A DNA stretch of 46,666 nt from Deltaproteobacteria bacterium (GTDB taxonomy: Bacteria; Desulfobacterota; Desulfobacteria; Desulfobacterales; Desulfosarcinaceae): contig JAHLLR010000038.1 in assembly GCA_020444075.1 (NCBI GenBank), forward strand, positions 1 to 46,666, written 5' to 3'. Every line of letters begins with the position of its first letter. Positions within the stretch are counted from its first letter, which is position 1. A program made the position numbers and the translations under genes. Positions 8,752 to 35,616 of the stretch are shown in pieces. The notes below the pieces were generated by a model, which ran no database searches, was not told the DNA's origin, and was given only the letters and a program-made list of their open reading frames with translations.

Positions 8752-9001
8752 GTCAATCCAGCACCCCGCATGGTTACCCGCGTTTCGTCCGGGGAACCAC
8801 CATATCGTCATTGAAGCGCTTTGCATCAGGCTTCAGGTATAGCGTATGGACGATCGCCAAGGGTTGTTCACTCAACCCATCCAACTGCAAGCAGTGGCGA
8901 ACGCACTCGTCAGCAGGGGGCTCCGATACGGGATGCCATTGGTCGAGGTTCCACCAGAACAGGCGTTTACCAAAATATTACCATTCGCAAGACACGTTCC
9001 C

Positions 9002-9030
9002 TTGTACATCGGAGACTCTTGTTTTATACT
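9002..9030 (+). promoter_or_regulatory. Sigma-70-type promoter for the KAS III-like gene
   Basis: TTGTAC (9002-9007) and TATACT (9025-9030) are spaced by 17 bases, and the start codon follows 33 bases later with GAGGGGG just ahead. The -10 matches 5 of 6 consensus bases while the -35 is weak. Confidence 0.45.
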
Positions 9031-9063
9031 ACTTTTTTTAAAAATTCACACAATGAGGGGGAC

Positions 9064-16543: not shown

Positions 16544-17911
16544 TTATCGGCTCAGAAAAAATGACGGATCCCCCGCTTTGTCGGTGAGCACGCCATCCTT
16601 CATGAGGCCCAGGTCCGCCATCCACCCTTCAAACTCCGGCAACGGACGCAACCCCAATGTCTGCCGCAACGAGGGGGCGTCGTGAAAGCTGGTGCACTGG
16701 TAGGCCAGCATGGCATCGTCACCCATGGGCACGCCCATGAAATAGTTGCAGCCGGCCGCGGTGAGCAGCACCGCCAGATTCTCAATGTCATTCTGGGTTG
16801 CCCGGGCGTGGTTGGTGTAGCAGGCGTCGCAGCCCATGGGGATGCCGGTCAGCTTGCCCATGAAGTGGTCCTCCAGGCCGGCCCGGGTGATCTGGATGGC
16901 GTCGTACAGATATTCCGGGCCGATAAAGCCGACCACGGTGTTGACCTGGTAAGGCTTCCAGCGTTTGGCCAGGCCATAAATCCGGGCTTCCAGGGTGAGC
17001 TGATCCCAGCCGTTGTGGGCATTGGCTGAGAGCGCGGAGCCCTGGCCCGACTCAAAGTACATATAGTTGGGGCCCGTCGGCCAGCAGTATTTTTGAGCCA
17101 TTTCATAGGCTTCGTCCATCATGGCCACATCGATGCCGAAGCTTTGATTGCCCAATTGCGAACCGGACAGGCTCTGAAACACCAGGCCCACCGGCGCCCC
17201 TTTTTTCATGGCCTGCATCTGGGTGGTCACATGGGACAGCAGGCAGTTCTGGGTGGGGATCTGCCAGGTCCGGATGATGTCGTAGGTCATATCCAGCAGT
17301 CGGGCCACACTGCTCAGGCTGTCATCCACCGGGTTGATGCCGATGACGCTGTCACCGGAACCGTAGGAAAGGCCTTCGTAGACGGCGGCGCGAATACCTT
17401 CCGGGCTGTCTACGGGGTGATTGGGCTGGCAGCGGCTGGCCAGGGTTCCGGGAAGACCGGCGGTATTGACGCAGTGGGAGGTGACCCGGATCTTTTTGGC
17501 GGCGTAAATCAGGTCGAGATTGGACATCAGCTTGGTTACCGCCGCGACCATTTCACCGGTCAGGGCATTGCTCACGCGGCGGATCATGTCCGTTGTGGTC
17601 TTGTCCGCGAGCAGCCATTCCCTGAAATCACCTACCGTCCAGCCTTTGATCTCATCGTAAATCGTTTCGTTGACGGCGTCGTCGATCACCCGGGTGACGT
17701 CGTCATGGTCGTAAGGCACCGCCGGATTGGCTCGCAGTGTCTCCAGGGTGACCTCGGCCAGCACGTACTTGGCGGCCACCCGTTCGGCAATCGATGTGGC
17801 TGCCAGACCGGCCAGTTCATCACCGGATTTGGGTTCGTTGGCCTTGCCCATGAGTTCGCGAATACTCCGGAATTCAATGGTCTTGCCAAATAGTTTGGTC
17901 CGCAGCAGCAT
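16544..17911 (-). CDS. eutB: Ethanolamine ammonia-lyase large subunit EutB
   Basis: 455 residues from the ATG at 17911, chosen because MLLRTKLFGKTIEF aligns with the enteric start and AAGGAA precedes it; the frame extends to 17965 without support. Family blocks are intact: LAATSIAERVAAKYVLAE, YGLSYGSGDSVIGINPV-like (here EGLSYGSGDSVIGINPVD), QNCLLSHVTTQMQAM, YFESGQGSALSANAH, VGFIGPEYLYD, GLEDHFMGKLTGIPMGCDAC and a C-terminal KAGDPSFFLSR. EutB carries the B12 and substrate site. No EutT adenosyltransferase gene is in the window, so cofactor supply must come from elsewhere. Confidence 0.95.
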   Translation of the reverse strand: MLLRTKLFGKTIEFRSIRELMGKANEPKSGDELAGLAATSIAERVAAKYVLAEVTLETLRANPAVPYDHDDVTRVIDDAVNETIYDEIKGWTVGDFREWLLADKTTTDMIRRVSNALTGEMVAAVTKLMSNLDLIYAAKKIRVTSHCVNTAGLPGTLASRCQPNHPVDSPEGIRAAVYEGLSYGSGDSVIGINPVDDSLSSVARLLDMTYDIIRTWQIPTQNCLLSHVTTQMQAMKKGAPVGLVFQSLSGSQLGNQSFGIDVAMMDEAYEMAQKYCWPTGPNYMYFESGQGSALSANAHNGWDQLTLEARIYGLAKRWKPYQVNTVVGFIGPEYLYDAIQITRAGLEDHFMGKLTGIPMGCDACYTNHARATQNDIENLAVLLTAAGCNYFMGVPMGDDAMLAYQCTSFHDAPSLRQTLGLRPLPEFEGWMADLGLMKDGVLTDKAGDPSFFLSR

Positions 17912-17980
17912 GAACGCATTTCCTTGATGGTGAACAGAATCGTTGTCGGGGAGAAAGAATAACACATTCCCCCCAAAAGC

Positions 17981-19459
17981 TTAATGGTAAAAGATCAGCG
18001 TCTTTACACTCAACGGCACGGCCCGGCCGTCCAGCACCGGCCGTCCGATATCAATATAATCACCCTCCCTGAGCCCCACCTGGTCAATGACGAGCAACGG
18101 GCGGTCGGGTAACAGATTCTTCACGGTCTGACCCAGTGCGCGGGCATAGTCGTGCTCGATGATGATGATCAGCGGCTGGTCGGCTGCCAGGTGGGCGGCC
18201 GTGAAATCAGCCAGGCCGCCGGCCAGCGCGGTCAGACCTGAAAAATCGAGACTCCAGGACAACTCCAGGGCGATGGCAAACGGGGTGCCGGTCGGTTCGA
18301 CGTCCCATCGGACCACCGCATCGCGGGCTGCCGCCGACACCTGTTGGCGCGACGGCGGGATCTGCGGCCATTGCGGGTGAACGACGGGTACATTTCTGAT
18401 GGGCAGGATCGCTTCCTCGGCCCAGATGGTGCTGCCGCTCAGGGTTACCGTCTGGGAACTGGCTCCCATCACCGTGGCCTGCAGGGTCTCCGGCGGCCTG
18501 CGGATATCAATCGTTTTCAGATCGGGGTGAAGGCGGATCGATTCCGCCAGCAACGGTCCGATATCCCCATGAACGGTCACATCTTCAGTAGAATTGATGG
18601 GGATCGGCGCATAAATATAGTGCCCGATGCCGCCCGAAAAAAACACCGTGGTGTTTTTTCCCGATTCCGGCGACGGGTCGGTCAGCATCAAATGCCGGGC
18701 CAACGGGCCGCACCGCCCGTCGATCAGTTCGACGGTCAGGTCGGCCATGCAATCCGTAAGCTCACGCAACTGCGCCAGGCTCGGCTTGAATCCAATCGAA
18801 AACGGGAGCCCCAGATGATCGATCATGATCCGGGCCGGTTCGGCGATGTGCCGGATCTGCCCGCTGGCCCGGTCTATTTCCAGAATACGCCCGCCATAGT
18901 TCATTGCCGCGGCGGAAATCATCCGGCCCTGGCGAAAAATGGCGCTGTTGGCGGATCCGCCGCCGATATCCACGTTGGTGACGGTGGTGAAGTGTTCCCG
19001 GGAGAATGCCTCGGCCCCGGATCCTTTTCCGGAAATCATCGATTCCAGGTGCGGTCCGGCCACGGTGACCACAAAGTCTCCGGCCAGGGCCGAGAGTGCA
19101 TCCAGGATCACGTCGGCGTTGCGCTTTTTGGCGGTTTCGCCGGTAATGATCACCGCGCCGGTCTCGACCTGTTCCGGGGAAATGCCGGCCTGCCGATATT
19201 CCCGGCGCAGAATCTGTTCAAGGGCGGATGCATCGATGACGTCCGGCCCGGCCAGGGGCGTGAAATGCATCCCGCTGCGGTAGACCACCTCCTTGTCGAC
19301 AATGCTGGTCATGCGGGACAGGTTGATCGGCGACTTGGCCAGCGGTGTCGAACCACCCATCATTCCTCCGGCCAGGGTCAATCGGGAAAAGACAACCTGC
19401 GTGGTCGTGGTACCCACGTCAATTCCAACGCTGAGCATTTCATGGTTGTCTTTTCCCAT
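17981..19459 (-). CDS. eutA: EutA, ethanolamine ammonia-lyase reactivating factor
   Basis: 492 residues. It has the ATPase fold of the family: LSVGIDVGTTTTQVVFSRL at the N-terminus, VTNVDIGGGSANSAIF in the middle and VFFSGGIGHYIYAP later. EutA releases damaged cobalamin from EutBC in an ATP-dependent way, allowing exchange for intact adenosylcobalamin. The start is 1 bp beyond the eutN stop, so the two are tightly coupled; the eutN-eutA-eutB-eutC order places the lyase and its repair factor together. Length fits enteric EutA (about 467) with a modest extension. Confidence 0.92.
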   Translation of the reverse strand: MGKDNHEMLSVGIDVGTTTTQVVFSRLTLAGGMMGGSTPLAKSPINLSRMTSIVDKEVVYRSGMHFTPLAGPDVIDASALEQILRREYRQAGISPEQVETGAVIITGETAKKRNADVILDALSALAGDFVVTVAGPHLESMISGKGSGAEAFSREHFTTVTNVDIGGGSANSAIFRQGRMISAAAMNYGGRILEIDRASGQIRHIAEPARIMIDHLGLPFSIGFKPSLAQLRELTDCMADLTVELIDGRCGPLARHLMLTDPSPESGKNTTVFFSGGIGHYIYAPIPINSTEDVTVHGDIGPLLAESIRLHPDLKTIDIRRPPETLQATVMGASSQTVTLSGSTIWAEEAILPIRNVPVVHPQWPQIPPSRQQVSAAARDAVVRWDVEPTGTPFAIALELSWSLDFSGLTALAGGLADFTAAHLAADQPLIIIIEHDYARALGQTVKNLLPDRPLLVIDQVGLREGDYIDIGRPVLDGRAVPLSVKTLIFYH

Positions 19460-19460
19460 A

Positions 19461-19754
19461 TTACCGACTCTTGCGAAAAGTCACCTTTCCGTTCGATTGC
19501 AAGGTATCGACGATAGCCATGATTACATTGTCTACGGGCCGGTCGAGGGTGATATCCGTCTGGCGGGCCCCGGAACCCCGGGTCACCAGCACCAGGTCTC
19601 CCTCACCGGCGTCCACCGCATCGACGGCAACCATGGGTTGGCCCACGGATTTACCGGCTACGTCGGTTTCTTGAACAATCAGAAGCTTGCTGCCGACCAG
19701 CGATTCGTGCTTCATGGTCGCGACGACCAGTCCTGTTACCCGTGCGATGAGCAT
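19461..19754 (-). CDS. eutN: EutN/CcmL-type pentameric vertex protein
   Basis: 97 residues, a complete BMC-P protein: LIARVTGLVVATMKHESLVG, KLLIVQETD, MVAVDAVDAGEGDLVLVTRG and a final DNVIMAIVD helix. Pentamers of this family cap the vertices of the polyhedral shell. It is the first eut gene behind the transporter, only 15 bp after dctM, which joins transport and compartment in one operon. Confidence 0.92.
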   Translation of the reverse strand: MLIARVTGLVVATMKHESLVGSKLLIVQETDVAGKSVGQPMVAVDAVDAGEGDLVLVTRGSGARQTDITLDRPVDNVIMAIVDTLQSNGKVTFRKSR

Positions 19755-19769
19755 AACGTGAATCCTTTT

Positions 19770-21095
19770 TTATTTTCCAAAATATAAATCAGGCAGCCAC
19801 AGGGCGATCTGGGGAAAAATGATGACAATGGCCAAACCGAGAATCATGACCAGCACGAAGGGTACGATCGAGTTGTAGATATCCATCAGAGTTACCTCCG
19901 GTGGTGCCATGGCCTTCATGAGAAACAGATTGTAACCGAAGGGCGGGGTCATGTAGGCGATCTGGCAGGTGATTGTATAGAGCACGCCATACCAGATGGC
20001 GTCGAACCCCAGGTTGATCACCAGAGGGACATAAAGGGGGGCAACGATGATGAGCATTGCCGTATCGTCCAGGAACATGCCCATCAGGATGTAGGAGAGC
20101 TGCATCATGACCAGCACGCCCCACGGGCTGAGTCCCCACCGGTCGAGAAACAGAGATTTGATCGCATGCACGGCGCCGAGGCCATCGAAGACGGCACCGA
20201 AGCAGAGGGCCGCCAGGATGACCCACATGAACATGCAGCTCACGCTCAGCGTATTGCGCAGGGTGTTCTCCAGCACCTTTCGGTTAAAGCGGCCTCTGAC
20301 CACGGCGGCCAGGGTCGTTGCGGCCGCACCGGCTGCCGAACATTCGACAAGGCTGGTGATGCCCAGCAGGAAAAGCCCCGTCATGGAAAAAATGATCACC
20401 AGCGGGATGATGCCTGCCCGGAGCAGCCGGAACTTCTCCCCCCAGGTGATCAGCCGCCGTTCTTCCAGCGCCAGCGCCGGGCCCAGCTGCGGGTTCATTT
20501 TGCATCGAATCGTGATGTAGGCGATAAACAGGCCGGCCAGGAGGAGGCCGGGGAAAACTCCGGCCAGCCACAGCCGGCCTACATTCTGCCGGGCGATCAT
20601 GCCATAGAGAACCAGAACGACGCTGGGCGGAACCATGATGCCTAAGGAACTGCCTGCCTGGATGACGCCGGTGACCATGACTTTGTCATACTTGCGCTTG
20701 AGCATTTCCGGCATGGCGATACTGGCGCCGATGGCCATGCCGGCGACACTCAGCCCGTTCATGGCCGCCACGGCAGTCATCAGGCCGATCGTTCCGATGG
20801 CCAGTCCCCCGTCGAGGGGGCCCATCCAGACATGGAACATGCGGTAGAGGTCGCTGGCGATGCCTGACTCCGAAAACATGTATCCCATATAGATGAACAG
20901 TGGCAAGGTGAGCAGGGGGTACCAGTTCAACAGAACGAAGCTCGCATTGAAGGGCATCTCTATGCCGCCCTCGCCCCACAGGAGCAGGGCGAAAAGGGCG
21001 GCGACCCCCCCGATGGCCGCGAAGACGCGTTGCCCGGTGAGCAGCATGAGCAGCATCGAGGTGAATATCAGCAGGGCGATCATTTCGTGGCTCAT
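19770..21095 (-). CDS. dctM: TRAP transporter large permease DctM
   Basis: 441 residues, hydrophobic throughout, with the number and spacing of segments expected for DctM (about 12). Conserved blocks include GLSVAGMAIGASIAMPEML, QAGSSLGIMVPPSVVLVLYG, LSYILMGMFLDDTAMLIIVAP-type motif (here MGMFLDDTAML) and ITCQIAYMTPPFGYNLFLMK. It couples substrate import to a sodium gradient, using the periplasmic DctP protein. Its ATG overlaps the dctQ stop (TAATG). Confidence 0.92.
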   Translation of the reverse strand: MSHEMIALLIFTSMLLMLLTGQRVFAAIGGVAALFALLLWGEGGIEMPFNASFVLLNWYPLLTLPLFIYMGYMFSESGIASDLYRMFHVWMGPLDGGLAIGTIGLMTAVAAMNGLSVAGMAIGASIAMPEMLKRKYDKVMVTGVIQAGSSLGIMVPPSVVLVLYGMIARQNVGRLWLAGVFPGLLLAGLFIAYITIRCKMNPQLGPALALEERRLITWGEKFRLLRAGIIPLVIIFSMTGLFLLGITSLVECSAAGAAATTLAAVVRGRFNRKVLENTLRNTLSVSCMFMWVILAALCFGAVFDGLGAVHAIKSLFLDRWGLSPWGVLVMMQLSYILMGMFLDDTAMLIIVAPLYVPLVINLGFDAIWYGVLYTITCQIAYMTPPFGYNLFLMKAMAPPEVTLMDIYNSIVPFVLVMILGLAIVIIFPQIALWLPDLYFGK

Positions 21096-21604
21096 TATAT
21101 CGACTCCCCTCTGGCCGTTGCCAGGTCCTTGAAGAATATGGCGATCGCCTGCAGCAGCATCAACGCGATGCCGATGGTCATGATGACCTTGATGGGCGCC
21201 AGCGGCGGTGCCCAGGAGGTATAATTCACCTGCCCGTATCTCAGGGCATATTCAAGGCTGGAAATGGCGCCGTAGAGCAGAAGCACCAGGTAGAAGATCA
21301 GAACGACGGCGGTAATCATGTCCACTACCGCCCGGGTCTTCAACGACCACCGGCCGTAGAGGAGGTCCATCCTGACATGTCCTTCGAGAATCATGGAATA
21401 GCCGCCGCCAAGCAGGTAATAGGCGGCCATGGTGAACTGGGCGATTTCAACGACCCAAATGTGGGGTTGATTGAAAATCGTCCTGGAGAAGGACTCGAAG
21501 AGCAACACCCCCATCATGGCGAAGACCAGATATTGGGAGAACTTGCCGACCGCCTTGTTCGTGGCGTCAATGGTGCGCACAAAGATTTTTATTGCTTTGG
21601 GCAT
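21095..21604 (-). CDS. dctQ: TRAP transporter small permease DctQ
   Basis: 169 residues from the ATG at 21604, which has GAGGGG ahead; the frame extends to 21640 with a less likely start. Four hydrophobic segments are visible, with IWVVEIAQFTMAAYYLLGGG and EGHVRMDLLYGRWSLKTR between the second and third, the usual DctQ signature (R-x-D-hhY). It is the membrane partner of DctM. A perfect 18-bp inverted repeat lies in the gap upstream of it. Confidence 0.88.
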   Translation of the reverse strand: MPKAIKIFVRTIDATNKAVGKFSQYLVFAMMGVLLFESFSRTIFNQPHIWVVEIAQFTMAAYYLLGGGYSMILEGHVRMDLLYGRWSLKTRAVVDMITAVVLIFYLVLLLYGAISSLEYALRYGQVNYTSWAPPLAPIKVIMTIGIALMLLQAIAIFFKDLATARGESI

Positions 21605-21649
21605 AATGACCCCTCTGCTTGGGTATGCTGTTTTCGACACCCATTTTTA

Positions 21650-21700
21650 AGGGGCGCCTTTCCTGTCCAGATCCGCACTGAAGACAGGAAAGGCGCCCCT
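21650..21700. other. Perfect 18-bp inverted repeat between dctP and dctQ
   Basis: AGGGGCGCCTTTCCTGTC (21650-21667) is exactly complementary to 21683-21700 around a 15-base loop. No run of T follows on the minus strand (it continues TAAAAATGGG), so it is more likely an RNA-stabilising or processing hairpin that raises dctP over dctQM expression than a full terminator. Confidence 0.8.
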
Positions 21701-21736
21701 CGATGCTATAATAATAAAGGTTTTGTCCCCGGTTTT

Positions 21737-22786
21737 CTAATATCGGTATGGGGGGCCGGCGGCTTCCATGGTTTTGGCGTATTCCTTGAGGATGTTGACC
21801 ACTTTGGCATTCCTGGGGCTCTTGGCGGCAATCTCGTCCCAGTATTTCAGGGCGGCATCTTCCACGACCTTCCATTCGTCTTTGGGAATGGAGGTGAGTT
21901 CCAGTTTGCCGCCCTTGGTGCGATAGTGCGCTTCACCCCACCAGTACCAATGCTGTCGGTAGTAGTGCGAACTGTCCATGGACAGCTTGAACAGCGTCTT
22001 GAGGTGTTCGGGCAGGGCCTCCCATTTCTTGGTATTGGCAAAGTAAGAGCCCGCCCAGGCGCCGGATATGGGGTTGGTCAGATAGTACTTGGTGACATCG
22101 GCCCAGCCGACCGTGTAATCCTCGGTGATGCCGGACCAGGCTACCCCGTCCAGTTCGCCGGTCTGCAGGGCCATCTGGACGTCTTCATAGGGTAGGGACA
22201 TGGGCACCACGCCGAACTGTTGCATGAACTTGCCCCCGGTGGGGAACATGTACATTCTCAACCCCTTGAAATCCTCCATGTGCCGGATCGGCTTGCGGGT
22301 GGCGAAATTGCACGGGTCCCAGGCCCCCATGCTCAGCCAGGTGACTTCCGGTATCTCCGCGTAGGCTTCTTCCCAGATTTTGTTGAGCCCGTACCAGTTC
22401 CACAGCACGGGAACATCGAGTGAGTAGCGCGAGGCAAAGGGAAAGTAGGCGGCGAAGACAGATACGTCCACAGGCGCTGCAATTGAATCGTCGTCACTCT
22501 GAACGGCATCGATCGTTCCCTTGGACACGGCTCTGAACAGCTCGCCATGAGGCACGAGCTGATCGGCATTGTACAACTCGATGACCATCTCTCCATTGGC
22601 CGCTTTGTTAAACGCATCGATTGAGGGTTTAATAACATGTTCGGCCAGGGCTGGACCGGCATAGGTCTGCATCCGCCACTTGATGGTCGTCTTCTTTGCC
22701 GCGTGCACAAAGGGTGCGTTTATCGCTGTGGCTGCCACGGCCGCGGTTCCAACTCCTGCCTTTTTAATAAAATCACGTCTTTTCAT
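21737..22786 (-). CDS. dctP: TRAP transporter substrate-binding protein DctP (Tat-exported)
   Basis: 349 residues with a twin-arginine signal (MKRRDFIKKAGVGTAAVAA, cleavage near FVHAAKK). The mature protein has DctP features: IKWRMQTYAGPALAEHV, LYNADQLVPHGELFRAVSKG, DFKGLRMYMFPTGGKF and a mid-protein LQTGELDGVAW. It is rich in aromatic residues (HYYRQHWYWWGEAHYR). Tat export and Trp-rich pockets are common in the TakP-like subgroup. The family usually binds carboxylates through a conserved Arg; position at the head of a eut operon suggests ethanolamine or a related amine-bearing compound, which is an inference. It is the first gene after the sigma-54-like promoter. Confidence 0.88.
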   Translation of the reverse strand: MKRRDFIKKAGVGTAAVAATAINAPFVHAAKKTTIKWRMQTYAGPALAEHVIKPSIDAFNKAANGEMVIELYNADQLVPHGELFRAVSKGTIDAVQSDDDSIAAPVDVSVFAAYFPFASRYSLDVPVLWNWYGLNKIWEEAYAEIPEVTWLSMGAWDPCNFATRKPIRHMEDFKGLRMYMFPTGGKFMQQFGVVPMSLPYEDVQMALQTGELDGVAWSGITEDYTVGWADVTKYYLTNPISGAWAGSYFANTKKWEALPEHLKTLFKLSMDSSHYYRQHWYWWGEAHYRTKGGKLELTSIPKDEWKVVEDAALKYWDEIAAKSPRNAKVVNILKEYAKTMEAAGPPYRY

Positions 22787-23483: not shown

Positions 23484-25484
23484 CTACAGTTCAATAGCGG
23501 CCAGGAACCCGCCGTGGATGGCATCGCTGAGCTTGCCGGGTCTGATACCATCGCCAACGACGGTGTGGGAGATCCCGGCATCCGCCAGGGTCTTCGCCAG
23601 GTGATTTTCGGACCGGGAACCGGAAGCCAGGACGACGCTGTCGAAGCGGCCGGATTGCCTCTTGCCATCCTGTTCCCAGATCACTTCACTCCCGTCGATG
23701 GACAGCACCGTGGCACCGGTTTTGATTTCAACACCGTATCGCTTGAGCCGATCCATGAGGATCCAGCGGGTTGACTTGCCCACATCCCTGCCCGCCTTGT
23801 CGAGCATTTCAAAAACCGTAACCGACGAGGTGCCGGCGAACATCAGTTCCTTGAGCCTTTCCGGCGGTATGGCATCGAAGGCCATCAGGAAGTGGAGCAC
23901 CTCCGGGGTCAGGGTGCCTTTGGCGGCCACAAATAGAGCGGTCTCCAGGCCTACGGCACCGCCGCCGATGACGGCCACCTGCTTTCCCAGTATGGGGTTT
24001 TCCTTGAGCACCTGCCAGGCGTTGAGCACTTCCGGATCCTCCGCCCCGGGGATGGGGGGGATCAGGGCCCGGGCGCCTTCGGCCACGATGACATGGTCAG
24101 GTGCATTTTCGCGGATCAGATCCATGTCCACAACGGTGTTCAGGTGCAGGGGGATCCGGTAGCGGTTGACCATGGCCCGGTAGTAGCGGATGAACTCGAG
24201 CAGTTCGTGTTTGTGGGGTGGGGCACCGGCAATCCACAACTGGCCGCCAATGTCGCTGTCCCTATCGAAAATCTCAACCCGGTGGCCTCTTTGAGCAGCG
24301 GTGACGGCCGCCTCCAGGCCGGCGGCGCCGGCGCCGACCACCATGATTGCTTTGGGTGAGTCGGCGGGAAGCATTTTCCGCTCCGCTTCGAACCCGGCCC
24401 GCGGATTGCCCACACAATACACCGGCCTGCCGCTGAAGATTTCGTCCGTGCAGCCCTGGGAGCAGGCCACGCAGGGGCGGATTTCATCGGCCCGGCCATC
24501 GAAGGCCTTGGCCGGCCACTGGGGATCGGCAATGAGTACCCGGCCCAGGTTGACCATGTCTGCGTATCCGTCGCGCAGGATCCGCTCCGCATCATCGGGG
24601 GAGGCGATGCGGTTGGAGGCCATCACCGGCACGCTGACGGCGTTTTTAATGGTAAGGGCCAAAAAGGCGTAAGCGGTGCGGGGAAGCTCCATGGGCAGCT
24701 GGGGTACCCGGGATTCATGCCAGCCGCCGGTGACGTTGATCGCATCCACGCCGGCGGCCTGATAAGCGGCGGCGATCTTCGGTGTCTCGGTATCCGTGTT
24801 GCTGCCCGGAACAAAATCGTTGCCGGCCATGCGGATGGTCAGCGGCACATCCGGGCCGACGGCATTTCTCACTTTGGCGATGAGTTCCGTGGGAAAGCGC
24901 AGCCGGTTCTCGAAGCTGCCGCCGTATGGGTCCGTGCGCCGGTTTTTTAACGGCGAGAGAAACTGGGTGATGAGGTAGCCGGCGCTGCCGATGATCTCCA
25001 CGCCGTCGAACCCGGCTGCCACGGCCCGACGGGCGGCGGCGGCAAAGGCCTCCTGAACCTGGTGGATCTCCTCGATAGTCATTTCCCTGGGGGTGGCCTT
25101 GGAATATTTCGAGTATACGGCGGACGGAGCGATGGGGTCCTTGCCGTCGATGAGAAAAGGGTGGGAATAGGCTCCGGCGTGAAAAAGCTGGATCCAGGCC
25201 CGGGCACCTTCCTCTTTGATGATGGCGGCAACTGTGCTGAAGTCGGGTATGGCCTCGTCCCCGGCGATGGACAGGGCCAGGATTCCCGAACCCAGAAAGT
25301 CTACACCCACCGGCCCCACGGTGACGATGCCGGCACCGCCTCTGGCCCGCTCCCGGAAGAAATGGTAGTAACGGTCGTTGAGCTTGCTGTCGTAGGAATA
25401 GAGCAGCCCCAGGGAGGGGTAGGCGATCCGGTTCTTGATTTCAAGCCGGTTGATGGTGATGGGACTGAAGAGATAGCGGTACAT
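23484..25484 (-). CDS. Old-yellow-enzyme / 2,4-dienoyl-CoA reductase-like flavin oxidoreductase
   Basis: 666 residues from the ATG at 25484, preceded by GGGAGGAAAC; the longer ATG at 25526 overlaps the phosphoesterase stop. The N-terminal half is an FMN barrel of the OYE family (IKNRIAYPSLGLLYSY, FAAAARRAVAAGFDGVEI, LSPLKNRRTDPYGGSFENR). A cysteine cluster for a 4Fe-4S centre follows (CVACSQGCTDE, then YCVGNP). The C-terminal half has two dinucleotide-binding sites (IMVVGAGAAGLEAA and VAVIGGGAVGLETA) for FAD and NAD(P). The architecture is that of bacterial 2,4-dienoyl-CoA reductase and enoate reductases. It ends the lipid operon and probably reduces an unsaturated CoA thioester or enone; the substrate is unknown. 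Confidence 0.85.
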   Translation of the reverse strand: MYRYLFSPITINRLEIKNRIAYPSLGLLYSYDSKLNDRYYHFFRERARGGAGIVTVGPVGVDFLGSGILALSIAGDEAIPDFSTVAAIIKEEGARAWIQLFHAGAYSHPFLIDGKDPIAPSAVYSKYSKATPREMTIEEIHQVQEAFAAAARRAVAAGFDGVEIIGSAGYLITQFLSPLKNRRTDPYGGSFENRLRFPTELIAKVRNAVGPDVPLTIRMAGNDFVPGSNTDTETPKIAAAYQAAGVDAINVTGGWHESRVPQLPMELPRTAYAFLALTIKNAVSVPVMASNRIASPDDAERILRDGYADMVNLGRVLIADPQWPAKAFDGRADEIRPCVACSQGCTDEIFSGRPVYCVGNPRAGFEAERKMLPADSPKAIMVVGAGAAGLEAAVTAAQRGHRVEIFDRDSDIGGQLWIAGAPPHKHELLEFIRYYRAMVNRYRIPLHLNTVVDMDLIRENAPDHVIVAEGARALIPPIPGAEDPEVLNAWQVLKENPILGKQVAVIGGGAVGLETALFVAAKGTLTPEVLHFLMAFDAIPPERLKELMFAGTSSVTVFEMLDKAGRDVGKSTRWILMDRLKRYGVEIKTGATVLSIDGSEVIWEQDGKRQSGRFDSVVLASGSRSENHLAKTLADAGISHTVVGDGIRPGKLSDAIHGGFLAAIEL

Positions 25485-25522
25485 GTTTCCTCCCGACGGT
25501 GCTGGTTGATGTTGAATCCTCA

Positions 25523-26188
25523 TCATGTAAACGTGCAGGATGCCAAGCGGTCACTTCCCGGCTCCCAGATCATGACAAACCCTGAAGTCAGGGCGCCGCA
25601 GGTGATGATGCAGGGCCGTTGGTCGGCCAGTTCGATGACAAGGCCCTCAGGTGGAAAGAAGAACCGGATTTTCTTCCCCCTGCGGCTGATTATTTCCGGC
25701 TTGTGGCTGTGCCCGCGAAACAGCAGCCCATTGGGGTTCTGCCTGAAAAAGTCCGCGGCTTCGTGTTGGCCCATTGCCCCGATCATGGCTGAAAGCCCCA
25801 AGCGCCGCACAAAGGGGCGGGAGTGGACCAGTTTCGCACTGCCGACGGAAAGGCAGAGGGGAAGATTCTCCAGGAACGCAATCGTTTCCCGCCGGATGCC
25901 GCTATCCGAGCGTCCCGATGCATCGGCAGCCAGGGTGTGGTCGTTGTTGCCCTTGACGGCGACGATGCCGTGATTTTTTATCTGCGCCACGCAGTCATCG
26001 GCGGTCTTCGGCAAGGTGGAGTCGCAGATGTCCCCCAGGTGGTAAAGGGATGTGCAGGCCCGCTGTTTTAGAAAAACAGCACCGGTGGCGATGGCCTCGG
26101 GGTCGCCGTGGCTGTCGGCCATGATGCCGATTTTTTCAGGTGTCTTTTGCGGCATGACCTGTACGGTTTTTGGGGGATCAATCCTCAC
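25523..26188 (-). CDS. Calcineurin-like metallophosphoesterase (YfcE/MJ0936-like)
   Basis: 221 residues with all signature blocks of the phosphodiesterase family: IGIMADSHGD (D-x-H), YHLGDICDS (GDxxD-like), VKGNNDH (GNxD/H), and FRGHSHKP (GHSH). Two metal ions are bound and phosphodiester or phosphomonoester bonds are cut. Its stop overlaps the upstream ATG of the oxidoreductase. It lacks a signal peptide. The presence of a phosphoesterase in a CoA-thioester operon is unusual; it may simply be co-transcribed. Confidence 0.8.
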   Translation of the reverse strand: MRIDPPKTVQVMPQKTPEKIGIMADSHGDPEAIATGAVFLKQRACTSLYHLGDICDSTLPKTADDCVAQIKNHGIVAVKGNNDHTLAADASGRSDSGIRRETIAFLENLPLCLSVGSAKLVHSRPFVRRLGLSAMIGAMGQHEAADFFRQNPNGLLFRGHSHKPEIISRRGKKIRFFFPPEGLVIELADQRPCIITCGALTSGFVMIWEPGSDRLASCTFT

Positions 26189-26275: not shown

Positions 26276-27412
<1,137 letters not shown>

Positions 27413-27496: not shown

Positions 27497-28651
27497 TTAC
27501 AGGCCCATGAACTTGGCGGCAATACCTTTCATGATCTCGTTGGTGCCGGCGAAGATTGACATCACCCGTACGTCCCGCCAGGCGCGCACCAACGGGCAGG
27601 ACTCGACGGTGCCGAAATCGCCCAGGATGCTCAGGGCGCGGTCCGCCGTGCGGTTGGCCAGGTCCGTGGTCCAGAACTTGGCCATGGAGGTCTCCACCAC
27701 GATATTCTTCTTCTCGATGTGGTCGGCCACCAGTTTGTCCACGAAGGTGCGGCCGACCTTTACATCGGCGGCCATCTCCACCAGTTCGAACTGGACCGCC
27801 TGGGATTTGGACAGGGGACGGCCGCCGCGGTTGTTTTTGCGGCAGAAGTCCAGGGTCCACTCCAGAATGCGCTCGGCTCCGCATACCGCCCCCAGCGCAC
27901 AGGTCAGGCGTTCCTGCTGGAGTTTCTCCATGAGCATCAAGAAGCCCATCCCCTTTTCGCCCAGCCGGTTGTCCACGGGAATGCGGCAGTTGCTGAAAAA
28001 CAGCTCGGCGGTATCCTGACTGTGCCAGCCCATCTTGTCCAGCTTCCGCCCGCGGGTAAACCCCGGGGTGCCGTCTTCGACCACATACAGGGAGACCGCT
28101 TCGTATTTGTTCTCCACGGACGGGTCCTTTGCGGCGAACACCAGCAGGTCGCAGTTGATGCCGTTGGAGATAAAGGTCTTGGAACCGTTGACCACCACGG
28201 TGTCGCCCGCTTCTTCCGCCGTGGTCTTCATCCCGGCCAGGTCGCTGCCCGCATCCGGCTCGGTCATGCCCACCGCCGTGATGCAGTCGCCGGAGACGCA
28301 TCCGGGGAGGTATTTCTGCTTCAATGCCTCGCTGCCGTATGATTCGATGTAGGGAACCACCACATCGCTGTGCAGGGCGGCGGCCAGGCCGGTGTGGGCG
28401 GTGCGGGAAAGCTCTTCGGTCACGATCACCGAGTAGCGGAAATCGCCGCCAAGCCCTCCGTATGCCGGGTCCACGGTCGGGCACAGGAAACCTCCCGCCC
28501 CCATCTTGCGCCAGATGGACTTGGGGACGATATGATCCTCCTCCCAGCGATCCACATGGGGGGTGACGTCGGTTTCACAAAATGCTCTCAGGCGCTGTCT
28601 GAAATCTTCATGCTCCGGCGTGTAGTTCAAAATATCCATGTTGGTCCTCAA
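27497..28651 (-). CDS. Acyl-CoA dehydrogenase
   Basis: 384 residues. It has the FAD-binding and signature blocks CITAVGMTEPDAGSDLAGMKT and VVVNGSKTFISNGI, RAW-type C-terminal helix and the catalytic base Glu in FAGTNEIMKGIAAKFM, the long-chain/isovaleryl-type C-terminal placement pattern. It oxidises acyl-CoA to enoyl-CoA and passes electrons to ETF. Its ATG overlaps the thiolase stop (ATGA), so the two are translationally coupled. The substrate chain length cannot be deduced. Confidence 0.9.
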   Translation of the reverse strand: MRTNMDILNYTPEHEDFRQRLRAFCETDVTPHVDRWEEDHIVPKSIWRKMGAGGFLCPTVDPAYGGLGGDFRYSVIVTEELSRTAHTGLAAALHSDVVVPYIESYGSEALKQKYLPGCVSGDCITAVGMTEPDAGSDLAGMKTTAEEAGDTVVVNGSKTFISNGINCDLLVFAAKDPSVENKYEAVSLYVVEDGTPGFTRGRKLDKMGWHSQDTAELFFSNCRIPVDNRLGEKGMGFLMLMEKLQQERLTCALGAVCGAERILEWTLDFCRKNNRGGRPLSKSQAVQFELVEMAADVKVGRTFVDKLVADHIEKKNIVVETSMAKFWTTDLANRTADRALSILGDFGTVESCPLVRAWRDVRVMSIFAGTNEIMKGIAAKFMGL

Positions 28652-29957: not shown

Positions 29958-32702
29958 TTACGTGAGTTTGAACAGGCGCTCGATGAGCTGGGATTTCATG
30001 ATGTCACCTTCGATCTTCAGCTTGCCCGACGTATAGGCCTGCATGGCGGGCAGCTTGCCGGAGATGAGCCGTATAAAGTCGGTGTCGGTTATTTTGAGGG
30101 TGCAGGTGGCCTGATCCGTCCGTCCTTGCGACACCTTGCAGGTCTGGTCCTTGATGGCCACGCTCCAGTCGCCGCCGCCGGGCCCGGCGATGCAATATTG
30201 GAACACCACGTCGACGCCGGCCGCTGCATCCTTCAAGAAAGCGCCGGGCATTTTTTCAAACACCGCCGCTACGCTCAGGTCCGACTCACCCGCCGGTTGA
30301 GCTTTTTTTCCGGCAGCCGTTGACGGTGGCGGTGACGGCGGAGTCATCAGGTCCATAAGGGCTGAAGTCAAGTCCGGAAGTGGTTTGGCGTCTTCCATGG
30401 CGTTGATCCGGTCCCAGTTCTCGTGGATCTGTTCTGGCGTGGGCGGATGCTCAAGGTCCCCGAGCAGGGTTCCCGGCCCGGTCATGACGGCCGCCCGGTT
30501 CACGAACCCCATGCCCGTATTATAGATCGCACCCGTCCCGGTGCAGCGATCGCTGCACAAGTAGACCACCAGGGGGGCCACCAGCTCCGGTTTCATCTTT
30601 GAGAACATCTCCGGCGGCAGAATGTCTTCGGTGAGCCGGGAAGCCGCAAGGGGCGCCACGGTGTTGACCTTGATATCGGATTTGGCACCCTCCAGCTTCA
30701 AGGTGTTCATCATCCCCACCAGGGCCATCTTGGCCGCCGAGTAGTTGGTCTGGCCGAAGTTGCCGTAGAGTCCGGCTGCTGAAGTGGTCATGACGATCCG
30801 TCCGTAACCCTTCTCCTTCATAGCGGCAAAGGCCGGCCGGGTGACGTTGTAGGCGCCGTTGAGGTGGACGGCCATGACGGCGTCCCAGTTCTCCGGTTCC
30901 ATCTTGGTGAAGCTCTTGTCCCGCAGGATGCCGGCGTTGTTGATCAGGATGTCCACGGTGCCGAAGGCTCCCAGAGCGGTTTTAATGATGTTCTCGCCGC
31001 CTTCGACGGTGGCCACGTTGTCGTAGTTGGACACGGCCTGGCCGCCCGCCGCCTGGATCTCTTCCACCACCCGGTCCGCCGGTGAACGGTCACCGCTGCC
31101 CGCGCCGTCGCGGGCGCCGCCGAAATCGTTGACCACCACCCGGGCCCCCCGGTCGGCCAGTTCCAGGGCGTATGCGCGACCCAGCCCGCCGCCGGCACCG
31201 GTGATCACGGCGACCTGGCCATCGAAGCGGATCCGGTTCATCAGTTCCCTGGCTCCGGGAACCGGTGCGGCCTTCCAGAAGTAGTTGACGAAGCCCCGTT
31301 CCCGGTCCTCGCTGCGTTTGCGAAACACCATGCGCATGGGCAGTCCGACTTTCAGATCATCCATCTGGCAGTCGGTGAAATCGGCCATAAAGCGCCCGCC
31401 GCCATCGAACTGAATCATGCCGTAGCAGTGGGGCGGGTCCACGGAGACGGCCAGCAGGTCCGCCGTAAAGGTCTTGATTGTAGCCGGAACGTCGGCAAAT
31501 TCATAATCCAGTTGCGTCCGCAGGGCTCCGCATCCCGGATTGACGCAGATGTCCATTTTGGGAAACTGGGCGGTGCCGCACGCCTGGCAGCGCCCGCCCA
31601 CCAGCCCTAAAATCATCTGCCGCTTGCGCCACAGGGCGGTCATGGCCGTCTGGGTGGGGGCCTCGGCGCGGATGCCCATTTCAGTCTGGATCAGATCCCG
31701 GAACTTGAGAAACTTCGGGTAATTGTCGATGGTCTTCTTGTTCTCCAGACACCCCTTGACTCCATTGCGGCCCTTCAGGTCGAGAATTTTTTCGGTAACC
31801 TTGAAATAGAGAGCGTTGCATCCCTGGCCGAAACCGGCCACCAGGATCCGGTCTCCGGGACTGGCCGTTTCCAGCGCAGCGGACAACATGAGCAGGCTGT
31901 GCGCCGTGCCGGTCTCCCCGCAGACCTCGTGCAGGTTGTCCGCCACCTTGTCCTTGTCGGCCCCCAACAGCGCGGCAATTTTACGGTGCTCGGCCTTGAA
32001 GAAGCAGGGAAACACCAGTTGGTCCACGTCGTCCATGGTGATGCCCAGCTTGTCCATAAGCCCGTTCACGGCCTCCGGGATGATCTTGGCATAGCCTTCG
32101 TCGCGGGCCCAGCGTTCTTCCCACATGTAGTCGAATTTCTTCCCGGTGCCCCGGTAATGGTCCACGAAGTCGTAGGAAACCGAATGGCTGCCCAGAAATT
32201 CGGCGATGACATTCTCGTCACCCACGCACAGGGCGGCAGCGCCGTCGCCAAACCACATTTCGTAAAAATAGGCCGCCCGGGTTTCACGGCGGTCGGCGGC
32301 GGCTACCAGTACCTGATGTCGGTCGCCGGCCTTGACCGCATCCAGGGCGGTGATCAGGGCGCCGGACCCTGCCTTCTGGGAGGCGGTGAAATCCGCAGTG
32401 ATGATGTCGTTTCTCAGATTCAGGGCCGTAGCCACAATGCCGGCATTCTGGCGGTCGGCAAAGGGCAGGGTGGTGGAAGCCAGGTAAAGGCCGTCGACCT
32501 GTGGTTTGTCCATGCCCGTCAGGCAGTCCCTGGCGGCGGCCACGGCCATGGTGAGGCTGTCTTCGTCCCAGTTGCACATGGACCGCTCGCCCTGGGCCAC
32601 CATGACCACAGCCGGGGCGAACCAGCCCATGCTCTGGAAAATGGACATCCGGTCCAGCCGGAGTCGGGGAATGTAGGCGCCGTAAGCGGTAATTCCAACC
32701 AT
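29958..32702 (-). CDS. Four-domain fusion: HMG-CoA-synthase-like, DUF35 zinc ribbon/OB fold, SDR and SCP2
   Basis: 914 residues in four parts. Residues 1-320 resemble archaeal/bacterial HMG-CoA synthase (VGITAYGAYIPRLRL, then GFGQGCNALYF at the end), but the expected Cys, His and Glu positions appear replaced (ADFTASQKAGSGAL, with Gln where Cys is expected; LVFPCFFKA; STTLPFAD). Residues about 365-480 are a DUF35 module with four zinc-ribbon Cys (CQACG, then CVNPGCG) and an OB fold. Residues about 490-790 are an SDR dehydrogenase (GAGGGLG, NNAGILRDKSF, YSAAK), of the peroxisomal multifunctional-enzyme type. Residues about 805-914 are an SCP2 sterol-carrier domain. It neighbours the thiolase, which may use the DUF35 module, and precedes a second SDR-SCP2 fusion. 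Substrates are unknown; lipid-like CoA thioesters are likely. Confidence 0.85.
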   Translation of the reverse strand: MVGITAYGAYIPRLRLDRMSIFQSMGWFAPAVVMVAQGERSMCNWDEDSLTMAVAAARDCLTGMDKPQVDGLYLASTTLPFADRQNAGIVATALNLRNDIITADFTASQKAGSGALITALDAVKAGDRHQVLVAAADRRETRAAYFYEMWFGDGAAALCVGDENVIAEFLGSHSVSYDFVDHYRGTGKKFDYMWEERWARDEGYAKIIPEAVNGLMDKLGITMDDVDQLVFPCFFKAEHRKIAALLGADKDKVADNLHEVCGETGTAHSLLMLSAALETASPGDRILVAGFGQGCNALYFKVTEKILDLKGRNGVKGCLENKKTIDNYPKFLKFRDLIQTEMGIRAEAPTQTAMTALWRKRQMILGLVGGRCQACGTAQFPKMDICVNPGCGALRTQLDYEFADVPATIKTFTADLLAVSVDPPHCYGMIQFDGGGRFMADFTDCQMDDLKVGLPMRMVFRKRSEDRERGFVNYFWKAAPVPGARELMNRIRFDGQVAVITGAGGGLGRAYALELADRGARVVVNDFGGARDGAGSGDRSPADRVVEEIQAAGGQAVSNYDNVATVEGGENIIKTALGAFGTVDILINNAGILRDKSFTKMEPENWDAVMAVHLNGAYNVTRPAFAAMKEKGYGRIVMTTSAAGLYGNFGQTNYSAAKMALVGMMNTLKLEGAKSDIKVNTVAPLAASRLTEDILPPEMFSKMKPELVAPLVVYLCSDRCTGTGAIYNTGMGFVNRAAVMTGPGTLLGDLEHPPTPEQIHENWDRINAMEDAKPLPDLTSALMDLMTPPSPPPSTAAGKKAQPAGESDLSVAAVFEKMPGAFLKDAAAGVDVVFQYCIAGPGGGDWSVAIKDQTCKVSQGRTDQATCTLKITDTDFIRLISGKLPAMQAYTSGKLKIEGDIMKSQLIERLFKLT

Positions 32703-32736: not shown

Positions 32737-34845
32737 TCATTTTAATTTGAATAACTTTTCGATCAGCTGGGATTTCATGATATCCCCTTCTATTTTCAAT
32801 TTGCCCGAGGTGTAAGCCTGCATGGGCGGCAACTGGCCGTTCATCATTTTCAGAAAGTCCCCGTCGGCGATCTTCAGGGTGCAGGTGGGGCTGTCGTGGA
32901 GGCCGACGGCCACCGTACAGGTCCCCTCCTTGATGGTGCAATGCCATTCCCCGGCACCGGCGATGGCGTACTGGAACACGGCGTTCACCCCGGCTGCCGC
33001 TTCAGCCACGAAGGCGCCGGGCATGGCGTCGAAGACTGCCGGCACCGACGAAAACCCTTTCGATTCCTCGACCGGGGATTTCCCCGCCGGCGCCTGGAAG
33101 GCTATCAACGCGTCGCCCACCTGGGCATTGAGGTCGTGGTAGATCTTGGCGCCGGTCAGATCCGAGATGGCTTCCAGGTTGGCCATCACCGTTTCGGGGG
33201 TGGGAAGCTGATCGTCTTTGGCCAGGACCTTGCCCGGCCCGGTGACCACTGCCGCCCGGTTGAAAAAGCCCATGCCGGCATTGTAGATGTTGCCGCTTAC
33301 CGGGCATCGGTCCGAGCACAGGTAGAGCACCAGCGGGGCGACGAATTCGGGTTTGGATTTGGCAAACATTTCCGGCGGCATCACGTCTTCGGTGAGCCGG
33401 GAGGCGGCGATGGGGGCCACGGTGTTCACCTTGATGCCGTATTTTTCCCCTTCCAGCTTCAAGGTGTTCATCAGGCCCACCAGGCCCATTTTGGCCGCCG
33501 CGTAGTTGGTCTGGCCGAAGTTGCCGTACAGTCCGGCGGCCGAGGTGGTCATGATGATGCGTCCGTACCCCTTTTCCTTCATCACTGCAAAGGCGGGCCG
33601 GGTGACGTTGTAGGCTCCCTTGAGGTGGACATCCAGCACCGCCTGCCAGATCTCCGCCGACATTTTTACGAAGCTCTTGTCCCTGAGGATGCCGGCGTTG
33701 TTGATCAGAATGTCCACGGTGCCGAAGGCGTCCAGGGCGGTCTTGACGATGTTGGCGCCCCCCTCGGCCGTGGCCACGCTGTCATAGTTGGCCACGGCCT
33801 CCCCGCCCGCCGCCCGGATCTCTTCCACGACCCGATCCGCCGGCGAGGATGAACCGCCGCCGGCTCCGTCCCGGCTGCCGCCCAGGTCGTTGACCACTAC
33901 CCGGGCGCCCCGCCGGGCAAGTTCCAGGGCATAGGTCCGGCCCAGCCCCGCACCGGCGCCGGTGACAATGGCTACCCGGTCGTCAAAGCGAATCTCGTCT
34001 TTGGGAATGTCACCGTATTCGAATTCGCCGTTGTCGATGACCACCTGGCCGTTTTCGGCATTGACGGTGCGCCAGACCGCCTTGCCGTCGGCGGTTTTCC
34101 AGATCAGGGTCCTGATGGGAACGCCAGGGTAGAGGGTCTTGGAAAAACGGCAGGCGAGCCGGCGGACCCGCTCGGGTTGACCCGGCACCAGAGAGGCCAT
34201 CAGGGCCCGACAGGCAAACCCATGGGTGCACAGGCCGTGCATGATGGGCATGTCGAATCCGGCCATCCTGGCGAATTCCGGGTCCACGTGCAGATGGAAG
34301 ATGTCACCGGAGAGCCGGTAGAGCAGCGGCTGATCCGGGGAGGGGGCTGCTTCCACAATAAAATCGGGGTCCCGGTCCGGAAAGTCCACCGGGCTTTTTT
34401 TGCGGTCCTTGCCGCCGAAGCCGCCGTCAAGGCGCCCGAAGACGGTAATGACGTTGGTGAACAGCTTCTTCCCGCTGGAGTGGACGGTTTCGCTTTCGGC
34501 GACGATGAGCGCACCCTTGTCCTTGCCTTTGTCAAAGTAGTCTACGATTCTGCCCGTGGTGATCAGGGTGCCTTCGGGGGGGATGGGGTTGTGGAAAATC
34601 AGTTCCTGCTCCCCGTGGAGGATGCCCGCGAGATTCACGCCGGAGGCGATGGCCGCCTGTGACAGGAAATCGAAGATCATCGCGATGGAAAAGCTGGGGA
34701 TGACTTTCAGGTCCTTTTCATAGCAGTAGTCCAGTTCGGAAAAACCCGCACCGACGCCGAGTGCATAAAGGACGGCATCCTTCCAGGTGTAGTCCCGCTT
34801 CATGGGGCCGATGGGTTTACCGATGGCATCCCTGTTTAGCGCCAT
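32737..34845 (-). CDS. Multifunctional enzyme: MaoC-type hydratase, SDR and SCP2
   Basis: 702 residues from the ATG at 34845 (AGGAGG ahead; longer frame ignored). Residues 1-285 are a double hot-dog R-specific hydratase with the family motif at YRLSGDIFHLHVDPEFARMAG; the canonical Asp and His are kept, but the usual N-P between them is F-H. Residues about 287-590 are an SDR dehydrogenase (GAGAGLG, NNAGILRDKSF, Ser in TTSAAGLYG, YAAAK). Residues about 600-702 are SCP2 (LPPMQAYTSGKLKIEGD). The mammalian MFE-2 has the order SDR, hydratase, SCP2; here the hydratase is first. It would hydrate and oxidise an enoyl-CoA in one polypeptide. The SDR and SCP2 parts are near duplicates of those in the neighbouring fusion. 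Confidence 0.88.
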   Translation of the reverse strand: MALNRDAIGKPIGPMKRDYTWKDAVLYALGVGAGFSELDYCYEKDLKVIPSFSIAMIFDFLSQAAIASGVNLAGILHGEQELIFHNPIPPEGTLITTGRIVDYFDKGKDKGALIVAESETVHSSGKKLFTNVITVFGRLDGGFGGKDRKKSPVDFPDRDPDFIVEAAPSPDQPLLYRLSGDIFHLHVDPEFARMAGFDMPIMHGLCTHGFACRALMASLVPGQPERVRRLACRFSKTLYPGVPIRTLIWKTADGKAVWRTVNAENGQVVIDNGEFEYGDIPKDEIRFDDRVAIVTGAGAGLGRTYALELARRGARVVVNDLGGSRDGAGGGSSSPADRVVEEIRAAGGEAVANYDSVATAEGGANIVKTALDAFGTVDILINNAGILRDKSFVKMSAEIWQAVLDVHLKGAYNVTRPAFAVMKEKGYGRIIMTTSAAGLYGNFGQTNYAAAKMGLVGLMNTLKLEGEKYGIKVNTVAPIAASRLTEDVMPPEMFAKSKPEFVAPLVLYLCSDRCPVSGNIYNAGMGFFNRAAVVTGPGKVLAKDDQLPTPETVMANLEAISDLTGAKIYHDLNAQVGDALIAFQAPAGKSPVEESKGFSSVPAVFDAMPGAFVAEAAAGVNAVFQYAIAGAGEWHCTIKEGTCTVAVGLHDSPTCTLKIADGDFLKMMNGQLPPMQAYTSGKLKIEGDIMKSQLIEKLFKLK

Positions 34846-34953
34846 GATGGTCCCTCCTTGCATTGTTGGGTGAGTATAACAGTCAGTGGCGACTCTCGGT
34901 AGCCGTCCGCAGGCTTTTGCCGGCCTTCCGGGCAATCGGTGTCGCCGTTAATT

Positions 34954-35616
34954 TCATTGGCGATTTCCGGGAGGTGTTGATCCACCCTCGCCAGTTCCGC
35001 CTGTAAAGGCCGGAATCAGTAAAAACTTCAGGGTCTCCTTGACCACATCCAGGTAAGCGGTTTTATCCACCCCCAGGATGGGGCGGAAGAAGCTCTCGCC
35101 GGAAATAAAGTTGAGCACGGAATTCCAAAGGGTCATGATGCGCGCCTTGGCCTGGGGGGTGACATGCTGCTTATCGGTGGCCAGGCCCATGGCGATGGCG
35201 ATGTTGGCGATGTGGCCGGCCACCTTTTCGTCCAGGCTCACTTCGTTTTTTGATTTGCTGAAATAGCCCAGGAGCAGCAGGTTCGACACTTCGGGACTTT
35301 CGTGAAGGTAGTCGCACATGACGTCGATGGCGATGCCGAGGCGATCGGCCAGGCTCCTGCCTCTGGCTTGTCGCTCGATGATCTTGAACTGGGTTTCGAT
35401 TCCCTCGTTGAGATCGATGATCACCGCCTCGTAAAGGTCGGCCTTCTCTCCCCAGTGATAGTACAGGGTGGAGATGTCAATGCCCACCGCCTTGGCGATC
35501 ATGCGGGTGGTGGTGCCCTGGAATCCGTATTCGCCGAACAGCCGCCGGGCGGCAGTCAATATCCTGGCCTTGTTGGAGTCCGGATTTTTTCTGGCTTTCT
35601 CGAGGGGGGACGGCAT
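34954..35616 (-). CDS. TetR-family transcriptional regulator (lipid operon)
   Basis: 220 residues with an N-terminal helix-turn-helix (RILTAARRLFGEYGFQGTTT, then MIAKAVGIDISTLYYHWGEKADLYEAV) and a C-terminal ligand/dimer domain. It is the first gene of the minus-strand lipid operon, so it probably represses that operon and responds to an acyl-CoA or substrate. A short inverted repeat lies 61 bp upstream (35677-35690). Confidence 0.85.
   Translation of the reverse strand: MPSPLEKARKNPDSNKARILTAARRLFGEYGFQGTTTRMIAKAVGIDISTLYYHWGEKADLYEAVIIDLNEGIETQFKIIERQARGRSLADRLGIAIDVMCDYLHESPEVSNLLLLGYFSKSKNEVSLDEKVAGHIANIAIAMGLATDKQHVTPQAKARIMTLWNSVLNFISGESFFRPILGVDKTAYLDVVKETLKFLLIPAFTGGTGEGGSTPPGNRQ

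Follow-up and report, generated by a model that had tools for sequence, protein, structure and literature searches.

Gene content of the locus

The window, by which we mean the whole stretch of 46,666 nt that was analysed (contig JAHLLR010000038.1 of assembly GCA_020444075.1), comes from a sulfate-reducing Deltaproteobacteria bacterium of the Desulfosarcinaceae. Its minus strand carries a run of genes separated by gaps of about 100 bases or less. A TetR regulator (34954-35616, domain match) heads this putative operon and is followed by a MaoC (hydratase 2)-SDR-SCP2 protein (32737-34935), a large fusion protein (29958-32702), an SCP-x/archaeal-type thiolase (PRK06157; 28648-29856), an acyl-CoA dehydrogenase (27497-28651, domain match) and a family III CoA-transferase (26276-27412, domain match) that probably catalyzes the activation step. 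The MaoC protein, recognized from its open reading frame (ORF), Pfam domains and a motif, is predicted to perform hydration and dehydrogenation. It contains an SGDxxHLHxD stretch, which we take to resemble the hydratase-2 motif. An OYE-type (FadH/BaiCD-like) reductase on the same strand (23484-25526), assigned by profile matches, may be accessory. Judged from sequence, candidate genes for activation, dehydrogenation, hydration, oxidation and thiolysis are thus encoded side by side.

The fusion gene is an intact ORF with an ATG start that encodes 914 amino acids, and full-length counterparts from 54 loci were aligned with it. Four domains follow each other on the chain, all encoded on the minus strand. 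Alignments, structure comparison and residue counts identify residues 1-345 (31668-32702) as an HMG-CoA synthase-like (HMGS-like) domain. Residues 350-482 (31257-31655) form a DUF35 domain, assigned by Pfam and aligned to 6ESQ_E and PhlB, in which the four zinc-binding cysteines of ChsH2-type proteins are present (Cys372, Cys375, Cys386 and Cys391). Residues 490-780 (30363-31235) form an SDR of the (3R)-hydroxyacyl-CoA dehydrogenase type (MFE-2/HSD17B4) according to Pfam and profile matches, and residues 824-912 (29967-30233) an SCP2 lipid-binding domain according to Pfam. The Pfam matches above cut-off are ACP_syn_III_C (217-296), OB_ChsH2_C (408-461), adh_short (496-684) and SCP2 (824-912). 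Those to zf-ChsH2 (21.0 bits, cut-off 23.2) and ACP_syn_III (19.8 bits, cut-off 24) fall below it. This confirms the four-domain fusion that a preliminary description of the locus had proposed. The SDR is closest to MFE-2 dehydrogenases, with 48% identity to the human and rat enzymes, and its Ser641, Tyr654 and Lys658 are kept in 55 of 55 aligned rows.

Distribution and evolution of the family

Scanning genome contigs yielded 211 relatives, of which the best 80 were kept (the close set). These loci are labelled Desulfosarcina, Desulfobacteraceae, other Desulfobacterales, Syntrophales or Smithellaceae, and Desulfomonile; the remainder are labelled "Deltaproteobacteria" or unclassified proteobacteria or bacteria. 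Among these best 80 of 211, all four domains lie in one ORF at 57 loci, 16 encode HMGS-DUF35-SDR with no SCP2 detected (several end at a contig edge), and seven hold less, namely four cut or broken genes and three unfused HMGS-DUF35 proteins. Broken fusion ORFs were seen at L036:7989-9821 (611 aa) and L080:7956-9140 (395 aa). The mean column identity of the fusion is 74%. SCP2 is missing from the two closest relatives, L008:275-2686 and L009:2963-5455, whose HMGS domains are 90% and 88% identical to that of the window; in both, the fusion stops after the SDR though the contig runs on into the thiolase gene. The design can thus do without SCP2.

In a sample of 395 Desulfobacterota genomes, 110 have an HMGS-like match (E ≤ 1e-10). 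Among the matches listed, an ORF of more than 800 aa is found in at least 19 genomes, and the others lie in ORFs of 283-579 aa. We added 50 further loci (L096-L145, the wider set). The four zinc cysteines of DUF35 are kept in all 45 wider-set rows with letters at these positions. A quick tree, with SH-aLRT support only, places all 75 long-ORF rows within one group of 82, whose remaining members are four cut rows and three bidomain rows; outside it lie 45 further bidomain rows and three unfused rows. One of the three bidomain rows inside the group, L112, has a very long branch (1.79) and an unsure placement. Synthase-DUF35 proteins of about 490 aa recur in the phylum, and the long form marks one clade. 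In the open-access literature searched, judged by title and the start of the abstract, we found no description of the fusion protein or its family, and candidate papers whose text was searched did not contain DUF35, SCP2 or hydroxymethylglutaryl.

The gene neighbourhood was compared across the 80 close loci, 47 of which span at least 11 kb. Neighbour clusters, which were named by eye or after the window proteins they matched, comprise the thiolase (55 loci), TetR (37) and the acyl-CoA dehydrogenase (36), with family III CoA-transferase (16), AMP-ligase-like (8), Fe-alcohol-dehydrogenase-like (8) and OYE (7) clusters as the variable part. Because the neighbours beyond the core vary, we claim no substrate. 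In an SDR tree, the domains fall into two main groups, one for the fusion and one for the MaoC protein. At four loci (L019, L040, L042 and L072), each SDR instead has the other SDR of its own locus as its supported sister, a pattern suggesting that neighbouring SDR cassettes were exchanged or converted there.

The adjacent thiolase

We looked for a thiolase gene beginning no more than 600 bases downstream of the fusion, or of its shorter relatives, on the same strand. This is the next gene at 62 of the 80 close loci; 15 have no room for it on the contig, so the count is 62 of 65 with room. The corresponding counts in the wider set are 44 of 50, six without room and 44 of 44 with room, giving 106 of 109 overall. 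The exceptions all belong to the close set: no thiolase follows at L036, which has a broken ORF, or at L037, although there is room for one at both, and at L080, also broken, the thiolase is 1563 bases away. As in PhlABC and HMGCS-type systems, the HMGS, DUF35 and thiolase modules are encoded together. A mirror-tree comparison with the HMGS domain at 23 loci gave r values of 0.646 (thiolase), 0.624 (hydratase) and 0.586 (TetR), so the thiolase is not singled out by this measure.

The thiolase itself is well conserved, with a mean column identity of 84% compared with 74% for the fusion. According to profile matches and alignment, it has a nucleophilic Cys and HDCF and GHP motifs, and Cys88, His296, Cys298 and His346 are kept in 57 of 57 rows. 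Its best PDB profile matches are the acetoacetyl-CoA thiolase of 6ESQ and 7YVY (218 and 216 bits). Against the BbsB model NF053628 it scores 135.9, far below the cut-off of 750.

These features bear on the chemistry of the partner, which could instead be a retro-aldolase or a C-acyltransferase that cleaves or builds some other C-C bond. DUF35-partnered relatives do include steroid side-chain aldolases, according to the available part of PMC12329534, and Friedel-Crafts acylases, according to the available part of PMC6392133. In the former source, as far as its accessible text goes, Gly replaces the nucleophilic Cys in Sal, and Ltp2 and Sal carry a YDHF or YDCY motif. An Ltp2/Sal identity, which calls for one of these motifs and a lost nucleophile, was rejected since all 57 rows have HDCF and Cys88. 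Because this Cys and motif are kept, and the nucleophile position and motif of the aldolases differ, we regard the neighbour as a plausible thiolase. The profile scores against PhlC are only 90-95 bits, and the operon would provide the steps that make a 3-ketoacyl-CoA. Taken with these points, aldolase or acyltransferase chemistry appears unlikely.

The HMGS-like domain has lost its catalytic residues

We predicted the structure of the HMGS-DUF35 half from a 77-row alignment (pLDDT 85.1, pTM 0.88); the model of the full-length fusion is weak (pLDDT 73.6, pTM 0.53). In a VIA structure comparison, the best matches of the HMGS-DUF35 model are 6ET9_I and 6ESQ_I (Z 45.2, rmsd 2.0, 337 and 336 residues aligned), followed by PhlA of CsATase (Z 44.1), PhlA of PpATase (42.9-43.2) and MucA (39.9). 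The first three are nearly tied. The predicted model thus has the HMG-CoA synthase fold. Sequence profiles give a different order, with PhlA (170 and 158 bits) ahead of the true synthase (136.5 bits) and MucA (108 bits). These nearest solved relatives, PhlA, archaeal HMGCS and MucA, are all subunits of DUF35/thiolase complexes.

The preliminary description had read by eye a Cys-to-Gln change in an S-Q-K-A-G motif and altered Glu and His positions in STTLP and VFPCF. Alignment with the archaeal synthase 6ESQ_I bears out all three: Thr77, the first Thr of STTLP, replaces Glu82 (codon 32472-32474), Gln109 replaces Cys114 (32376-32378), and Pro232 replaces His238 (32007-32009), a residue that also has a role in catalysis. 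Cys114 and Glu82 are named as key residues of archaeal HMG-CoA synthase in the accessible part of PMC6392133. The fusion also misses the NCBIfam cut-offs for HMG-CoA synthase (PRK04262, 207.3 against 244; TIGR00748, 147.6 against 353.35). In the alignments, the Cys position is occupied by Gly in PhlA and Glu in MucA, and the His position by Gln in both.

We counted residues in 82 close rows (the window, L008-L087 and L145, with the three unfused and the cut ones included) and 48 wider rows (L096-L144 minus L121, which is cut). The short sequences L088-L095 from the genome sample were omitted, L088 being the window itself. In none of these 130 rows are Glu, Cys or His found at their respective catalytic places, and one row has a gap at the Cys position. 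Thr occupies the Glu position in all 82 close rows and in 45 of the 48 wider ones, and Pro the His position in 81 and 25 of them, respectively. The loss of the catalytic residues is therefore common to the whole family sampled. It cannot be put down to chance because the domain averages 73% identity to that of the window across the 80 loci (best 80 of 211 relatives) while the residues are absent from 130 rows.

An intact Cys-His-Glu set elsewhere in the domain did not come up in the alignments and is probably absent. The close set does have invariant residues of its own, as Cys233 (codon 32004-32006), His182, His239 and His268 are present in 82 of 82 rows. Glu148 is invariant in all 130 rows; because 6ESQ_I, PhlA and MucA have Glu at the aligned place, it is no argument for a special site. 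Cys233 together with His182, His239 or His268 could constitute a new active site or a substrate gate in the old pocket. The invariance of the four residues, the strong constraint on the domain and the location of Cys233 immediately after the old His position speak for such a re-tooled enzyme. In the wider family, where the thiolase neighbour is the same, only 20 of 48 rows keep Cys233, 15 keep His182, 23 keep His239 and 24 keep His268, and we consider this reading improbable.

The Cys position holds Gln in 54, Leu in 23, Glu in two, Met in two and Ile in one of the 82 close rows, and Leu in 25, Ile in six, Thr in six, Pro in three, Gln in two, five single other residues and one gap in the 48 wider rows. 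Gln at residue 109 (56 of the 130 rows) is therefore largely confined to the close set and is not fixed even there. KSQ domains generally need His partners. The preliminary description had suggested, from the Cys-to-Gln change, a possible decarboxylase for the thiolase. That Gln109 makes the domain such a KSQ-like enzyme, acting on malonyl-CoA or a 3-ketoacyl-CoA, is very improbable and was rejected, since the Gln of the window and many close rows is not conserved and often gives way to Leu, and His is missing from the His position of every row counted.

Proposed function

We consider it probable that the HMGS-like and DUF35 domains together act as a PhlA-like pseudo-synthase scaffold of the thiolase and that the dehydrogenase of the preceding step became fused to it, within an (R)-specific beta-oxidation operon. 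The domain order, the residue loss, the intact residues of thiolase and SDR and the gene adjacency are the observations on which this reading is built. By analogy, conserved adjacency, relatives that belong to thiolase/DUF35 complexes and a PhlA lacking the same Cys and Glu favour the earlier proposal of a scaffold for the adjacent SCP-x-like thiolase. The HMGS-like domain would have no catalysis of its own, as in PhlA. With the fused DUF35 it would scaffold the neighbouring thiolase and complete its CoA/substrate cavity. The DUF35 subunit plays this part together with HMGS in the archaeal thiolase/HMGCS complex, as described in PMC6392133, and together with PhlA in PhlABC. The fused SDR would oxidize a (3R)-hydroxyacyl-CoA to the 3-ketoacyl-CoA, which the thiolase would then cleave, and SCP2 may bind acyl-CoA. 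The CoA-transferase, acyl-CoA dehydrogenase and MaoC hydratase would complete one round of (R)-specific, MFE-2-like beta-oxidation. We infer complex formation, the degradative direction and the order of steps, and the (R)-stereochemistry is suggested by the MaoC domain and the kinship with MFE-2.

The invariant Cys233, His182, His239 and His268 exceed the needs of a bare scaffold and count against a pure one. Because they are invariant in the close set and patchy in the wider rows, the HMGS-like domain may line a specialised substrate chamber in the long-form clade. A more speculative extension, possible though on balance doubtful, is that fusion and thiolase form one machine for the last two steps of beta-oxidation built on a dead synthase. 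The emptied pocket would be a holding or gating chamber lined by these four residues, with transfer from SDR to thiolase without release.

Comparison with known systems

PhlABC (PpATase and CsATase) resembles the fusion and its partner in having an HMGS-like subunit without Cys and Glu, a DUF35 with a Cys4 zinc site and a thiolase-like partner with Cys88. It differs in that its three subunits are separate proteins, serve C-acylation in antibiotic biosynthesis and include no SDR or SCP2, and in that the partner in the window is closer to acetoacetyl-CoA thiolase than to PhlC. The accessible part of PMC6392133 describes PpATase as a Phl(A2C2)2B4 complex in which only PhlC residues take part in acyl transfer, PhlB mediates the binding of A to C, and PhlA is without the Cys and Glu of HMG-CoA synthase. 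The C88S variant of CsATase PhlC is inactive, as stated in the part of PMC12955522 available. The archaeal thiolase/HMGCS complex has the same three modules and contains the best structural match of the HMGS domain, but its synthase retains the three residues replaced in the fusion. MucABC of Streptococcus macacae (9VBO, 9VBT), which according to the available part of PMC10161427 acetylates a tetramate, also has an HMGS-like subunit, in which Glu occupies the Cys position and Gln the His position, but it is more distant in sequence and made of separate subunits.

A second likeness is to peroxisomal MFE-2 (HSD17B4) and SCP-x, through the identity of the SDR to the human and rat enzymes, the SCP2 domains and the SCP-x-like thiolase. 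MFE-2 has its hydratase on the same chain as its dehydrogenase. In the window, hydratase and SDR likewise share a chain in the neighbouring MaoC protein, but a dehydrogenase is here also fused to the HMGS-DUF35 scaffold. The bbs operon contains a family III CoA-transferase, an acyl-CoA dehydrogenase, a hydratase and an SDR, and the window resembles it in having DUF35 and a thiolase beside such genes. To our knowledge, BbsAB (benzoylsuccinyl-CoA thiolase) has no HMGS-like subunit, and the window thiolase is far from BbsB by its model score.

Our analysis points to a large Desulfobacterota family of synthase-like proteins that lack the catalytic residues and are accompanied by a thiolase, and would extend the PhlABC architecture, known from antibiotic biosynthesis, to apparent catabolism. 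Automatic "HMG-CoA synthase" labels may mislead for such proteins. The fusion also offers a clear test case for substrate channelling in DUF35 complexes, which the accessible part of PMC12329534 names as a future question.

Additional observations

Downstream of the thiolase at one wider locus lies an ORF (L127:8025-10742, about 906 aa) that includes a stretch resembling an SDR (40% identity). Elsewhere in the window, a KAS-III-like ORF of 434 aa on the plus strand (8821-10125) has an unusually long N-terminal part; its Pfam matches start at residue 209, apart from a weak PF00108 match at 142. Downstream of the operon, on the minus strand (16544-22786), the ethanolamine utilisation genes EutB and EutA lie beside the TRAP transporter genes DctM and DctP.
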